64,000 nucleotides of DNA from an uncultured Rhodospirillales bacterium (GTDB lineage: Bacteria; Pseudomonadota; Alphaproteobacteria; Azospirillales; Azospirillaceae): contig CAIXKV010000178.1 of NCBI GenBank assembly GCA_903920145.1, positions 1-64,000 on the forward strand. The letters are read 5' to 3'. The notes under the pieces are model-generated. The model searched no databases and was not told the origin of the DNA. It was given only the letters and a program-made list of their open reading frames with translations. Each line of letters opens with the position of its first letter. The first letter of the stretch is position 1. Below are positions 3,687 to 59,038 of the stretch, piece after piece. Made by a program: the position numbers and the translations under genes.

Positions 3687-5555
3687 ATGAGCAGCAGCAA
3701 ATCCTGGCCTTCCGCCCCGCTCCCCCCTATGCCGCTTGCGGACGCAATCCCGACTTTGCGGCGCGCCTTACTGATCGCGCTGGCGATCGGACTGCCGGTG
3801 GTGGCGTTGGTTTCAGGACACTGGGCGGCCGTTTGGGCGCGAGCCGATTTGCTGGCCGCAAGCCAGGGAGCCCTTGAACTGTTCCGGGCTAATTTAGCCA
3901 GCGAAGTTGACAAGAATGAGGCAGTCCCGTTTCTGCTGGCCCGCGACCATGATGTGGTGGCCTTACTGGCGACTCCCGCCCTGACGACGGCTTCGGCCCT
4001 CACCGAACGTCTCAATCGGAAATTAGAGGATATTCAGAACGCTATACATGCCGCTGCTCTTTACGTCATGGATACGAAAGGATTGACCATCGCGGCCAGC
4101 AATTGGAACAGCGACGCCAGCTTCATCGGCCAAAATTTTAATTATCGCCCTTACTTTCATGCCGCCATGGCCGGAACGGTGGGCCGCTATTTTGCCCTGG
4201 GCACCACCTCTCATCAGCCCGGCTATTATATCGCTTATCCCGTGCGAGCGGAAAACCGCACAGTGGGCGCCGTGGTGATTAAAGTCGGGATGGAACGGAT
4301 CGAACAAAGCTGGAGCGCCGGCCCTGGACGGGTGGCCGTAACCGATGGTGATGGGGTGATTGTCATCACCAATATCGACCACTGGCGCTTTCACAGCCTA
4401 GCGCCCCTGCCCGCTTTGGATCGCGCCCGTATCGAGGCCAGCCATAAATACGACGACCTCGCCATCACGCCGCTTCCCATCACGATCCAAACTTTCGCAA
4501 CCGCCATGCCGTTCGGCCCAGCCCCTCCTCTGATGATCCTGTCTGACGCGGTGCCTGGCACCGATTTGACGTTGCATGTGCTATCGGACCCAACACCAAT
4601 TCGGACACGAGCCGTGGCGGCGGCCTTGATCGGCGGCCTTGCCGTGGTGATCGCCGTTCTGCTGGGATTTTTGGTGTTAGGCCGTTGGATTCGCGCTCAA
4701 GAGCGATTGGCCGAACAACAGCGGGCTCGGGAGGATGTGGAACGGCGGGTCCAGGAGCGCACGGCGGATCTAGCGGAAGCCTATGACCAACTCAGCCGGG
4801 AGATGCGCGAGCGAGAGCGCGCCGAGCACGTACTCCGAGCTGCGCAAATCGAGTTGGTGCAGGCCACTAAGCTGGCGGCCCTCGGCCAAATGTCGGCAGG
4901 GGTGGCCCATGAGATCAACCAGCCCCTCAGCGCCATTCGAGCCTTTGCCGAAAATGCCGTTACCTTGCTGGAACGGGGGCGCACCAGCACCGTTTACGAC
5001 AATCTAACCCAGATTGCCGAACTGACCCAGCGAATGGCCGGCATCACCCAGCATCTTAAAGGATTTGCCCGGAAAGCGGCTGGCACGTTGGGGCCGGTGT
5101 CCCTGCCCGAAACCATCAATAAGGCGTTGATGCTGGTGGCGCCGCAAATTCGTGCGGCGCAGATCGACGTGATCGGCGCACCCCATCACCCGCCGCCGGT
5201 TCTGGCCGAGGATGTCAGGCTGCAACAGGTGTTGGTCAATCTCTTCACCAATGCCATCGATGCCATGAAGGGCTGTCCGCACCCCTGCCTGACCCTGGAC
5301 ATCCATCACGAGCGTGAGCACGGCGAGGTCACGCTCCGGGTCCGCGACACCGGGCCAGGCATTGCCGCCGCCGACTTGCCTCATCTCTTTGTTCCGTTCT
5401 TCACCACCAAAGGCGCCACCGAAGGTCTGGGCCTGGGGCTGTCCATCACATCGGGCATCATTCAGGACTTTGGCGGCACCATTGCCGCCGCCAATCATGC
5501 CGATGGCGGCGCCGAATTCACCATCCGTCTTCGTGCCCTGGACTCCAACCCATGA
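3687..5555 (+). CDS. dctB: C4-dicarboxylate sensor histidine kinase DctB
   Basis: This membrane kinase senses periplasmic dicarboxylates and phosphorylates DctD. The 622-aa protein has a first membrane helix at about residues 28-48, a periplasmic double-Cache-like region to about 305 (with the NFNYRPYFHAAMAG segment typical of DctB), a second helix at about 310-333, and a helical linker. HisKA follows with GVAHEINQPLSAIR (His near 408), then HATPase motifs N (NLFTNAIDAMKG), G1 (DTGPGI) and G2 (GLGLGLSI). Its stop overlaps the dctD start by four bases (ATGA), so the two are translationally coupled. It is divergent from its presumed target dctA. Confidence 0.95.
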   Translation: MSSSKSWPSAPLPPMPLADAIPTLRRALLIALAIGLPVVALVSGHWAAVWARADLLAASQGALELFRANLASEVDKNEAVPFLLARDHDVVALLATPALTTASALTERLNRKLEDIQNAIHAAALYVMDTKGLTIAASNWNSDASFIGQNFNYRPYFHAAMAGTVGRYFALGTTSHQPGYYIAYPVRAENRTVGAVVIKVGMERIEQSWSAGPGRVAVTDGDGVIVITNIDHWRFHSLAPLPALDRARIEASHKYDDLAITPLPITIQTFATAMPFGPAPPLMILSDAVPGTDLTLHVLSDPTPIRTRAVAAALIGGLAVVIAVLLGFLVLGRWIRAQERLAEQQRAREDVERRVQERTADLAEAYDQLSREMRERERAEHVLRAAQIELVQATKLAALGQMSAGVAHEINQPLSAIRAFAENAVTLLERGRTSTVYDNLTQIAELTQRMAGITQHLKGFARKAAGTLGPVSLPETINKALMLVAPQIRAAQIDVIGAPHHPPPVLAEDVRLQQVLVNLFTNAIDAMKGCPHPCLTLDIHHEREHGEVTLRVRDTGPGIAAADLPHLFVPFFTTKGATEGLGLGLSITSGIIQDFGGTIAAANHADGGAEFTIRLRALDSNP

Positions 5556-25190: not shown

Positions 25191-25217
25191 GTCGTCGAGC
25201 CTTAACGTTAACCTATC

Positions 25218-25340
25218 GAAGGCCCCTCAAACGCCGGGCGGGAGACATGACCGTACCTTGGGCTTCGCGCACATGAGCGCACGGGACCGCAGTCACAGTT
25301 CGAAGACCGGCCTTGTGTCATTGTCATGGCTCGTAGACAT
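25218..25340 (-). repeat. dispersed hairpin element, copy C1 (degenerate, reverse)
   Basis: Starting at the CCCCTCAAACGCCGGGCGGG part, this stretch follows copy A base for base with many changes: ACGCCGGGCGGG, then CTTGGGCTTCGCGCACATG, GACCGGC.., TGTGTCATTGTCATGGCTCG. It has lost the CCTTGATG hairpin and much of the stem pairing. It faces copy C2 at once, forming an inverted pair. Confidence 0.65.
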
Positions 25341-25344
25341 AATA

Positions 25345-25489
25345 CCAACGGCCCTAGACAATGATCGGTGCCATTGGTCTCGGCGGCGACCGCCGCTGCG
25401 CGCCCATGCGCGCGAAGCCAAGGGCGCGGATGCGCCCGCCCGGCGTCTGAGGGCAGCCTTGATGAGTCATCATCAAGGCCCGATGGTAT
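25345..25489 (+). repeat. dispersed hairpin element, copy C2 (forward)
   Basis: The right two thirds match the family closely: CGCGCGAAGCCAAGGGCGC, GATGCGCCCGCCCGGCGTC, then the hairpin CCTTGATG-AGTCAT-CATCAAGG and the end GCCCGATGGTAT. The left end is degenerate. The CGCGCGC/GCGCGCG-type stem seen in copy A is kept here as GCGCGCCCATGCGCGC. Confidence 0.8.
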
Positions 25490-25690
25490 CAGTCCCCTTT
25501 CCTGTCGCTCAAAAGCAATGTTTATCCCAATATAAAACTCGATAATCTTAATCTGCACAAAATCCACACAAAATACCTTGTTTTTTGCTCATCTTGCTTG
25601 AGCCCCCTGCACGCAAAGCCGTTATCATCGGGCATGAAGCAACACAACGACAATCTGTTGTGATCAATCACCAATCCGGAGACAAAAGCG

Positions 25691-31809: not shown

Positions 31810-31928
31810 TGCCGGTCCTCGGGCCGCGATTGCGGCTCCGCGCCCCTGCGCGCGAAGCCAAGGGCGCGGATGCGCCCGCCCGGCGTCTGAGGGCAGCCTT
31901 GATGAGTCACCATCAAGGCCCGATGATA
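31810..31928 (+). repeat. dispersed hairpin element, copy D
   Basis: It begins within the left stem (GCCGGTCCTCGGGCCGCGA), keeps GGGCCGC-GATT-GCGGCTC where other copies have GGGCCGC-GACG-GCGGCCC (the C-to-T change leaves a G.U pair), then GGGCGC/GCGCCC and CCTTGATG/CATCAAGG, and ends GCCCGATGATAT. The extreme left end is missing. It separates moeA from the lexA promoter. Confidence 0.8.
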
Positions 31929-31965
31929 TTCCCCCCCTTTTCACAGCCGACTGGATCCAAACCGC

Positions 31966-36814: not shown

Positions 36815-36981
36815 ATACCGGCGAGCCCTGATACTGACACATCGCCGGTCCTCAGGCCGCGACGGCGGCCCCGCGTCCTCGTGGACGCGAAGCCCCCGTG
36901 TGTGGACTCTCGGGGGCGCGGATGCGCCCGCCCGGCGTCTGAGGGCAGCCTTGATGAGTCACCATCAAGGCCCGATGGTAT
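36815..36981 (+). repeat. dispersed hairpin element, copy F (complete, about 167 bp)
   Basis: The most complete copy. In order: ends ATACC/GGTAT that can pair; stem ACCGGCGA/TCGCCGGT; GGCCGC-GACG-GCGGCC; CGCGTCC-TCGT-GGACGCG; GCCCCCG/CGGGGGC, competing with GGGCGC-GGAT-GCGCCC; and CCTTGATG-AGTCAC-CATCAAGG. It ends one base into the ATG of the LysM gene that follows. Confidence 0.85.
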
Positions 36982-45667: not shown

Positions 45668-45993
45668 CTCCACAGCACCGACAAATTGCCATAAAGCTAT
45701 CAAATCGCCCATGAAGACCTGCACGGGGTCGAGGTAAGCCCATACCGGCCATGATCATTTCCGCCAGCTATCGCACCGATATTTCAGCCTGTTACCCAGA
45801 TTGGTTCATCAATCGGCTGGCTGCCGGCTGGTGTTGCGTGGCCAATCCCTACGGTGGACCGCCGGGACGCGTTGACCTGATACCGGAGGCCGTGGATGCC
45901 TTCGTGTTTTGGACCCGCAATCTCGAGCCGTTCACTGCCGCTTTGGAAGCCGTGACGGCGCTCGGCCTTCCGTTCTCCCAGACTTGCTCAAAC

Positions 45994-46322
45994 CTACGCA
46001 TAGGCCGCTTTGAGGCTGGATTCCTGCTTCACCGAGGCTGGTTTCGTGACCGGCGCGAGCTGGTCGCCAGAGCTTGCCTCTCCACAGACTGACACCATCA
46101 GGCCTTGATGGTGACTCATCAAGGCTGCCCTCAGACGCCGGGCGGGCGCATCCGCGCCCCCGAGAGTCCACAACCCGGGGGCTTCGCGTCCACGAGGACG
46201 CGGGGCCGCCGTCGCGGCCCGAGGACCGGCGATGTGTCAGTATCAGGGACGGCCAATTTCACGAGGCTCTTCGCTGCGTTCACGTCTCGATCGTGAGTGC
46301 AGCCACAGGCCGGACACGTCCA
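45994..46322 (-). pseudogene. tnpB: tnpB (IS200/IS605-family OrfB) 3' remnant, split by repeat copy G
   Basis: Minus-strand 46251-46322 encodes the zinc-ribbon end of TnpB: WTCPACGCTHDRDVNAAKSL. After the 158-bp repeat the TnpB tail resumes at about 46092 as SVCGEASSGDQLAPVTK and PASVKQESSLKAAYA, ending at TAG 45994-45996. The SACGE...VKQE pattern is the usual TnpB C-terminus. The 5' nine tenths of tnpB are absent. The remnant lies inside the DUF1848 gene. Confidence 0.8.
46093..46250 (-). repeat. dispersed hairpin element, copy G, inserted in tnpB remnant
   Basis: Reverse-oriented copy with the CCTTGATG/CATCAAGG hairpin, GCGC and CGCGTCC/GGACGCG stems, and GACCGGCGATGTGTCAGTATCAGGG at its other end. 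The last 11 bases of the usual left end (ATACCGGCGAG) are not recognisable. Its position inside tnpB marks it as an insertion. Confidence 0.8.
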
Positions 46323-46446
46323 GTACGACACCGGCCTTCACGGCTGCACCTACTGCTATGCCGTCTCTGGCCGTCTAGCCGTCGAGCATCGCCGGCTTCG
46401 CCACGACTCCAACAGCGGCTTTTTGCGAACCCCGAACCGAACCCCT

Positions 46447-46728
46447 TCAGCATAGCAAGCGAGAAGCCCGGAGGGCGTTATAAAGCATCAGCCCAAGCAC
46501 GCTATCAATAGCAAACGTTAAATAACTCGATATCGCTAAAGTGCCTCCATGGATTACAAATTCCCAAAGAATAAATATCGTTACCCACAACGCCATGGCA
46601 CAAACAAACAGGCATAAATACACAATGACCTTATTATTTGATAATTGATCCTGGTTGTTAGACAGGAATACCTCTACTTTTGTTTCGTTATTGCGATCAA
46701 GTGGCGGAGCGTTAAACCGACTGGGCAT
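46447..46728 (-). CDS. small two-helix membrane protein, unknown function
   Basis: A 93-aa protein with two hydrophobic segments (VIVYLCLFVCAMALWVTIFI and a second ending in the SVLGLMLYNAL region). An excellent site, AGGGAGGAAAGG, precedes ATG 46728; an earlier in-frame codon at 46749 would lie before that site. The N-terminal 30 residues are polar. Not recognised. Its 3' end overlaps the DUF1848 remnant by nine bases. Confidence 0.55.
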   Translation of the reverse strand: MPSRFNAPPLDRNNETKVEVFLSNNQDQLSNNKVIVYLCLFVCAMALWVTIFILWEFVIHGGTLAISSYLTFAIDSVLGLMLYNALRASRLLC

Positions 46729-56259: not shown

Positions 56260-56275
56260 GGTATTCACGCAACGT

Positions 56276-57478
56276 TTATTTTTTCACCAGTGGGCATTCG
56301 CTTGCTGACAATGGGCGGAAGGCTTCATCTCCGGGAACAACCTTGACAACTTTGTAAAAATCCCACGGAGCTGTGGATTCTGCTGGAGTTTTAACCTGGA
56401 ACAAATACATGTCCCGAATGACGCGGCCATCCTCACGAAGCTTGCCATTTTTGGTCATAAAATCATCAACCGGAAGTTCGCGCATTTTGGCCATAACGGC
56501 TCCGGTTTCATCACTCCCCGCAGCTTTCACCGCCTTCAAATAATGGGTAACCGCGCCCGCAACCCCGGCTTGATACATATTGGGCATAAGATTCCGCTTG
56601 GCAAAAAAGCGGTGAGAAAATGCCCTGGTCTGGTCGTTCAAGTCCCAATAAAAGGCTTCAGTTAGCTGAATACCTTGGGTTACAGGCAACCCAAGGGTTT
56701 TAACGTCATTAATAACCATCAGCAAAATAGCTAACTTCTGGCCTGATTGTGTGATGCCGAAATCAGACGCTTGACTAATGGCATTGGTAGAATCAGAACC
56801 AGACGAAGCAACAGCAAGCACTTCTGCATTAGATTGCTGCGCTTGCATTAATACTGGTGAAAAATCAGGATTATTGGCAGGGAATCGAACGCTCCCGACA
56901 ATTTCACCGCCATTTTCTTTAATAACTGAGGAAGTTTCTTTCTCTAATGTTGTTCCAAAGGCATAATCAGCGGTCATAAAAAACCACTTCTTACCGCCCC
57001 CATTGACAATCGCTTTCCCTGTTACATGGGCCAACGCATACGTGTCGTAAGTAAAATGAACACTAACTGGCGTGCAGGCTTTTCCGGTCAGATCAGAAGC
57101 CGCAGACGATGAGAACATCACTATTTTATTTTTCGCCTGTGCCACTTTTTGAACAGCCAAGGCGACTGCGGTATTGGGGACATCGACAATCATGTCAACA
57201 CCCTCATCGTACCACTTAGAGGCGATAGCTGCGCCGACATCTGGCTTATTTTGATGATCGGCAGAAACAATTTCAATCGGGATGCCATTGATGGCACCGC
57301 CGAAATCTTCGGCTGCAAGTTCTGCTGCAACAATCGAGCCCTGTCCGGTATTTTCTGTATGCTCGCCTGCAAGATCCGTCAGAACACCAATTTTAATTGG
57401 TTTTCCGCTCATTTGGGCATATGCCCCTGGACTCGCTAGGCACAGAGATACCACAACTGCTAATCCGAACCGCTTCAT
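56276..57478 (-). CDS. ABC-type branched-chain/amide solute-binding protein (copy 1)
   Basis: A 400-aa periplasmic binding protein of the LivK-like type I fold. Signal peptide (LAVVVSLCLASPGAYA), then KPIKIGVLTDLAGEHTENTGQG, VDMIVDVPNTAVALAVQKVA, CTPVSVHFTYDTYALAHVTG and FFMTADYAFG. Very similar throughout to the next gene upstream. No permease or ATPase genes are adjacent in the window, so its transporter lies elsewhere or it serves a sensor. Confidence 0.9.
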   Translation of the reverse strand: MKRFGLAVVVSLCLASPGAYAQMSGKPIKIGVLTDLAGEHTENTGQGSIVAAELAAEDFGGAINGIPIEIVSADHQNKPDVGAAIASKWYDEGVDMIVDVPNTAVALAVQKVAQAKNKIVMFSSSAASDLTGKACTPVSVHFTYDTYALAHVTGKAIVNGGGKKWFFMTADYAFGTTLEKETSSVIKENGGEIVGSVRFPANNPDFSPVLMQAQQSNAEVLAVASSGSDSTNAISQASDFGITQSGQKLAILLMVINDVKTLGLPVTQGIQLTEAFYWDLNDQTRAFSHRFFAKRNLMPNMYQAGVAGAVTHYLKAVKAAGSDETGAVMAKMRELPVDDFMTKNGKLREDGRVIRDMYLFQVKTPAESTAPWDFYKVVKVVPGDEAFRPLSASECPLVKK

Positions 57479-57814: not shown

Positions 57815-57829
57815 CCTGGAGGTTTGACT

Positions 57830-59038
57830 TTACTTTTTCACGAGAGAACAGTCGCTATCGGCGAGAGGACGAAAAGCCTGCTCACCGGGTACTGTTTTTA
57901 CCAATTGATAATAATCCCATGGCCCCTTGGACTCTGTGGGAGTCTTGACCTGAAATAGGTACATGTCACGAACAACTCGCCCATCTTCACGAAGCTTCCC
58001 ATTCTTTGTCATGAAATCATTGATCGGAAGTTCGCGCATTTTGGCCATTACAGCTTCCGTTTGATCGGTTCCTGCGGCCTTAAGTGCCTTCAGATAATGT
58101 GTAACAGCGCCGGCGACACCGGCTTGGTACATATTTGGCATAACACCGCGCTTGGCAAAAAACCTTTTCGAGAAAGCGCGGGTTTCATCATTAAGATCCC
58201 AGTAAAAAGCATTTGTCAGCATAATGCCTTGCGTTACAGGAAGACCAAGGCCATTCACGTCATCAATTGCTAGCAGCAAAACGGCTAATTTTCGACCGGA
58301 TTGTAAAATACCAAAATCAGCCGCTTGACTGATAGCATTCTTGGTATCGATCCCCGCCGAGGCAACGGCTAGGACATCAGCGTTGGATTGTTGAGCCTGC
58401 ATCATCACCGAAGAAAAGTCGACGTTATTGGCTGGGAAGTGGACACTCCCTACAATATCGCCGCCATTGGCCTTGACTACGGCCTGGGTTTCTTGCTCCA
58501 GGGCCGCCCCAAAAGAGTAGTCAGCGGTCATAAAGTACCAGGATTTGCCACCGCCTTTAACGATTGCATTTCCGGTCACATGGGCCAAGGCATACGTATC
58601 ATATGTGAAGTGAACACTGACCGGCGTGCAGGCTTTTCCGGTGAGAACGGAACCCGCTGGCGCGGAGAACATAACGATATGGTTCTTTTCCTGAGCGACT
58701 TTCTGAACCGCTAGCGCAACGGCCGTGTTGGGGACATCTACGATCATATCGACACCCTCGTCATACCAATGACGAGCAATGTCGGCGCCAACCTCCGGTT
58801 TGTTCTGGTGGTCCGCCGAAATGATCTCGATGGGAGATCCATTGACGGTTCCGCCGAAATCCTCAACAGCAAGCTGGGCGGCTATAATCGAGCCTTGCCC
58901 GGTATTTTCCGTAAGCATGCCGCCAAGATCTGTCAAAACACCAATTTTAATCGGCTTTCCGCTCGCTTGAGCATAGGCATTTGGAATTGCAAAACAACTC
59001 AATGCGAGAGTTATTGCTACTAAACCGATATGCTTCAT
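57830..59038 (-). CDS. ABC-type branched-chain/amide solute-binding protein (copy 2)
   Basis: A 402-aa paralogue of the neighbouring gene with the same signal-peptide layout (MKHIGLVAITLALSCFAIPN), KPIKIGVLTDLGGMLTENTG, VPNTAVALAVQKVAQEKN and FMTADYSFGAALEQ. The two differ mainly in short loops (for example AASDLTG versus PAGSVLTG), suggesting a recent duplication with some ligand change. The ATG at 59038 is used; an in-frame codon at 59053 lies before the ribosome site. Confidence 0.9.
   Translation of the reverse strand: MKHIGLVAITLALSCFAIPNAYAQASGKPIKIGVLTDLGGMLTENTGQGSIIAAQLAVEDFGGTVNGSPIEIISADHQNKPEVGADIARHWYDEGVDMIVDVPNTAVALAVQKVAQEKNHIVMFSAPAGSVLTGKACTPVSVHFTYDTYALAHVTGNAIVKGGGKSWYFMTADYSFGAALEQETQAVVKANGGDIVGSVHFPANNVDFSSVMMQAQQSNADVLAVASAGIDTKNAISQAADFGILQSGRKLAVLLLAIDDVNGLGLPVTQGIMLTNAFYWDLNDETRAFSKRFFAKRGVMPNMYQAGVAGAVTHYLKALKAAGTDQTEAVMAKMRELPINDFMTKNGKLREDGRVVRDMYLFQVKTPTESKGPWDYYQLVKTVPGEQAFRPLADSDCSLVKK

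Follow-up and report, generated by a model that had tools for sequence, protein, structure and literature searches.

The locus at 45751–46455 of the 64,000-nucleotide stretch of DNA analysed here (the window), from an uncultured Rhodospirillales bacterium, raises the question of how parts of an ordinary gene, a transposon gene and a short repeat came to lie within one another, in which order they arrived, and what moved the repeat. The nested structure is real: one copy of the repeat, copy G, lies within a tnpB remnant, which lies within a DUF1848 gene. Copy G is a non-autonomous DNA transposon of the short MITE type, and its location inside tnpB is certain. Every layer is of an already known kind. 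The three layers are not a chance arrangement, because copy G matches other copies in the genome, the inverted-repeat ends are counted in large number against none in a control, and the two halves of tnpB co-align. Very probably, a MITE that duplicates a TNA target entered the tnpB of an IS200/IS605-type element, this element lies in DUF1848, and deletions followed (Table 1).

Table 1. Positions in the window of the layers of the nested locus and of the reference MITE copy.
Feature	Position	Strand	Basis
DUF1848 pseudogene, 5' part (MIISASYRTD...AVTALGL)	45751..45969	+	PF08902; 80% nucleotide identity to congener L076
tnpB tail (SVCGEASSGD..SVKQESS) and IS200/IS605-type right end	45970..46092	-	86% (100/116) to the multi-copy IS
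TNA target triplet adjoining the MITE	46090..46092	.	TGA on +, TCA on -; also in uninterrupted tnpB CACGGTGTCAGCC
Copy G, MITE without its first 10 bases	46093..46248	-	151/155 aligned positions identical to intact copy 36816-36980
tnpB zinc-ribbon segment (WTCPACGCTHDRDVNAAKSLVKLAV)	46249..46322	-	tblastn to L049 TnpB from residue 377; PF07282, 33.6 bits
DUF1848 pseudogene, 3' part (YDTGLHGCTYCYAV...)	46323..46455	+	blastn to L070, L072 and L076 from 46323-46324
Reference full-length MITE copy of the window, 165 bp	36816..36980	+	TGA on either side

A profile search with PF08902 matched the outer layer at 45754–45975 (profile positions 1–75 of 262, E 7.5e-20), and the same search found no full-length DUF1848 domain in the host genome; because only profile positions 1–75 are present, the DUF1848 gene of the window is a pseudogene. 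Ten of the 19 other genomes examined have the domain at full length, all four congeners (4/4) among them. Alignment with the ORFs of eight of these ten relatives (L069 and L071 were left out) extends the similarity to the congeners to 45975, so that about 6 bases are ambiguous relative to the transposon boundary at 45970, and resumes in the 3' part from about 46323. Approximately 543 bp of DUF1848 are missing, between nucleotides 225 and 769 of L072 and L076.

The preliminary description had placed plus-strand DUF1848 ends around the 3' end of a minus-strand tnpB, and this arrangement is seen in the sequence with corrected coordinates. The right end of the IS lies at 45970, with the bases CCGTTCTCCCAGACTTGC. 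The end ..TTTGAGCAAGTCTGG(A/G)AGAACGG is common to 11 other genomic copies, with flanks diverging beyond it, and at 11 of the 14 loci examined it was read as the same ..AAGAACGG followed by differing flanks. The common end therefore sets the IS boundary at 45970, inside the protein previously read as the DUF1848 5' part ending in 'PFSQT'; that part in fact ends at 45969, and the bases from 45970 belong to the transposon. Together with the full-length DUF1848 genes of relatives, the shared right end upholds the earlier view that tnpB DNA was inserted into DUF1848. The window lacks the left end of the IS and nearly all of tnpB, and with that left end gone the insertion can be read from one side only.

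What is left of tnpB includes a PF07282 zinc-ribbon domain scoring above the cut-off. The intact TnpB of L049, a 437-aa open frame, aligns (tblastn) as two minus-strand pieces, the first starting at residue 377 before the repeat and the second comprising residues 405–429 behind it; a weak extension of the first segment into the MITE was not counted as tnpB. Both halves thus align in the same orientation to one intact protein, in agreement with the proposal that copy G splits the remnant. The IS tail matches 24 places in the genome, and the zinc-ribbon DNA is found at seven, five of them uninterrupted (C125, C133, C17, C245, C199) and two bearing a MITE (the window and C68, with the MITEs oppositely oriented). 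Since the site is unbroken in five of the seven tnpB copies, copy G was inserted there and does not belong to tnpB by nature, as the claim that the element inserts into DNA had held. Tail copies at contig ends, which start at CCGTGAG or later, carry uninterrupted sequence in all nine cases read (9/9), and among these and the zinc-ribbon copies no intact tnpB gene naturally bearing the element was found. At C68 (L050/L118) the MITE is preceded by GCCG|TGA, the triplet of which also occurs in uninterrupted copies, and its far side is not tnpB. Besides the window, members of this MITE family interrupt two more tnpB remnants, at L050/L118 (C68) and at L053 (C150).

The MITE has terminal inverted repeats of ~23 bp (TACCggCGaGCCcTGATacTGAC / TACCatCGgGCCtTGATggTGAC). 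BLAST comparison of copy G with the genome gave ~40 near-full-length matches, mostly of 91–97% identity (40 of 819 candidates scored), and an alignment of 30 genomic copies with their flanks and 3 window copies revealed sharp element ends. The element is nearly palindromic and minus-strand copies were aligned in reverse register; the ends were re-read with orientation taken into account. Ends of the form TACCnnCGrGCCyTGATnnTGAC occur at 823 sites in 4.26 Mb (414 + 409), with none for the reversed control, and those preceded by TNA number 387 + 387 in the host genome versus 8, 1, 2 and 0 in four congeners. The genome is estimated to hold roughly 390 copies, the number being approximate because many of the copies interrupt the assembly. 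Paired ends, accepted at spacings of up to 260 bp, span 62–228 bp, most commonly 165 and 147 bp; at these lengths the MITE stays below the 500 bp expected of such elements and is too short to contain a transposase gene. A MITE copy folds strongly (z -4.5), with hairpins at the ends.

Other copies in the window, at 25200–25490, 31822–31930 and 1–138, are shorter, partly degenerate and without the central ~18 bp module; two shorter copies lie side by side near 25.3 kb. MITE ends are also contained in two IMG/VR contigs filed as viral (L123 and L124), and L124 has a complete copy near 4428–4575 with TGA on both sides. A 300-bp direct repeat in the window (56275–56574 and 57829–58128, 74% identity) does not match the MITE. 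A 1.5-kb stretch on C14, bounded by inverted ends, was rejected as an element: two separate MITEs frame a gene there, judged by eye to be ion-channel-like.

TNA is present on both sides in 35 of the 38 end-paired MITE copies in the sequence examined. The middle base is equal on the two sides in 20 of these 35 and differs in 15; shuffling gives a mean of 10.8 equal pairs, and 20 were reached in 6 of 10,000 shuffles. At L084 a MITE is inserted in the end of another MITE, where GGCGATGTG-TCA-[MITE]-TCA-GTATCAGGG corresponds to GGCGATGTGTCAGTATCAGGG in other copies. This nested pair (positions 1870–2080, on C14) is exact, with TCA duplicated, and constitutes a natural empty-site experiment. These comparisons show a family that, as judged from its sequences, inserts into TNA and duplicates these 3 bp. 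A 2-bp TA duplication was considered and rejected, since the target of the L050 MITE, GCCGTGAGTTCC, contains no TA.

The right junction of copy G retains GGTG|TCA, the same as in uninterrupted tnpB. The left junction reads GGCCGT|CCCTGATACTGAC, and at this point (46248/46249) the first 10 bases of the MITE are absent along with the neighbouring tnpB bases, GAGTTCCACGGTG(TCA). With one MITE end and one tnpB junction deleted, the duplication made by copy G itself is unreadable, and either one 26-bp deletion (for a TCA target) or two small deletions (for a TGA target) would fit the left junction equally well. The MITE entered tnpB between KLAV and SVCGE, and a deletion after insertion would have taken its left tip and up to 16 bp of tnpB. 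A separate deletion would have taken the IS left end, most of tnpB and the missing ~543 bp of DUF1848, and a single event running from inside tnpB into DUF1848 could remove all three; the number of deletions is what we infer from these junctions. With so much of DUF1848 and tnpB gone, the locus is best read as insertion plus deletions and not as two clean insertions. The locus provides a clean example of the stacked decay of selfish DNA within one genome.

The order of events is suggested to be IS first and MITE second. Copy G has diverged from the intact copy at 36816–36980 at 4 of 155 aligned positions and the tnpB tail from the multi-copy IS at 16 of 116, and a later arrival of the MITE fits these values. 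The time order given in the preliminary description is supported to the extent that copy G seems to be of more recent date than the tnpB around it, but it is not proven. We regard it as unlikely, though worth weighing, that the MITE first inserted into an IS at another locus and that this IS then brought it into DUF1848. Such a route is consistent with a multi-copy IS whose tail is present at 24 genomic places, and with tnpB copies that do acquire MITEs (C68, and L053 in another tnpB). However, the insertion of copy G is not repeated among the seven zinc-ribbon copies, the MITE found close to the most similar tail copy (C91, 81/85 positions) does not occupy the corresponding place, and the apparent youth of copy G relative to the tnpB that hosts it also argues against this route.

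As to what moved the MITE, an IS200/IS605 (HUH, Y1) transposase acting in trans had been proposed. The hairpins at the MITE ends resemble IS200/IS605 ends and an IS of this type is present in the genome, but HUH elements of this kind are not known to have terminal inverted repeats or to make a target duplication. The MITE ends in inverted repeats and is flanked by TNA at either end, the middle base of which recurs more often than by chance, and the exact empty site of one copy has TCA duplicated. These properties contradict the proposal, which we consider very improbable, and copy G does not fit the description of an IS200/IS605-mobilised element, with neither inverted repeats nor a target duplication and with a single fixed flank. 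Instead, the TNA duplication points to a DDE transposase, which would have moved the MITE in trans; it may belong to IS1031 within the IS5 family, a group for which 3-bp TNA target duplications are known. No autonomous element with MITE ends was found among the PF01609, PF13340, PF13359 and PF13586 matches in the genome: none of the five PF01609 matches is bracketed by a pair of MITE ends, PF13340 and PF13359 have no matches, and the one weak PF13586 match overlaps one of the five. The wider interest of the locus lies in the source of the transposase for ~390 closely similar copies.

The assembly frequently breaks in MITEs, and many contigs start inside one, so that a chimera joined at the MITE might be suspected; the halves of both tnpB and DUF1848 keep a consistent orientation and order across it, and we give a chimera little credence. 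The idea that the element is a natural tnpB 3' region, an omega/reRNA scaffold persisting as solo copies, can practically be dismissed, since despite its position where tnpB-derived guide RNAs lie and the strong folding of one copy (z -4.5), uninterrupted tnpB paralogues have a short KLAVSSTVSACGE link and rule out an omega-RNA region, copies at other places end in inverted repeats and adjoin TNA with no surrounding tnpB, and there is no Rfam match at the gathering threshold. At an E-value threshold, Rfam returned only a snoRNA match with a score far under its gathering score. The window repeat is a mobile DNA element with a TNA target, neither a tnpB RNA scaffold nor an IS200/IS605 passenger.

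Some part of the MITE query is matched in 19 of 59 genomes, the host's own included. A 32-nt core (GGGCGCGGATGCGCCCGCCCGGCGTCTGAGGG) recurs at up to 100% identity in several other genera, in which the arms differ (L031–L048), and some of those copies show ATACC..GGTATNA-like ends (e.g. L034, L038 and L044). We suggest, with considerable doubt, that the copies could be part of a broader superfamily of modular mobile repeats in Alphaproteobacteria, with arms varying by genus around a constant 32-nt core. If so, the core would be predicted to be kept for a function, be it the binding of a transposase or host factor or a role as RNA, and a yet unnamed transposase would move the superfamily, with a burst to ~390 copies in the host species.

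Among known systems, the window tnpB resembles IS200/IS605-type tnpB elements (IS1341-like) in its TnpB zinc ribbon, typical tail, common right end and multi-copy occurrence, but is a MITE-broken remnant without a left end. The 3-bp TNA target duplication is common to the MITE and the IS5 family (IS1031 group), but no transposase with MITE ends was detected in the genome among the families searched. A literature search yielded no description of the present family, and four stretches of element sequence matched no paper searched. A review of prokaryotic MITEs (PMC10969869) describes the general features found here, among them copies within genes and numbers reaching hundreds in a genome, with 711 ERIC copies reported in Photorhabdus luminescens. 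Relative to the bacterial MITEs treated there (ERIC, Correia/NEMIS, RUP, Nezha, Chunjie and QMITE), the present MITE is set apart by its 3-bp TNA target, its own end sequences, a GC-rich core and the lack of a partner IS among our findings. It is like them in being short, in its inverted-repeat ends and target duplication, in its strong hairpins, and in reaching up to hundreds of copies that are mostly intergenic and in some cases intragenic (PMC10969869). Within the compass of these sources, the present MITE family is new, with the general features of known bacterial MITEs.
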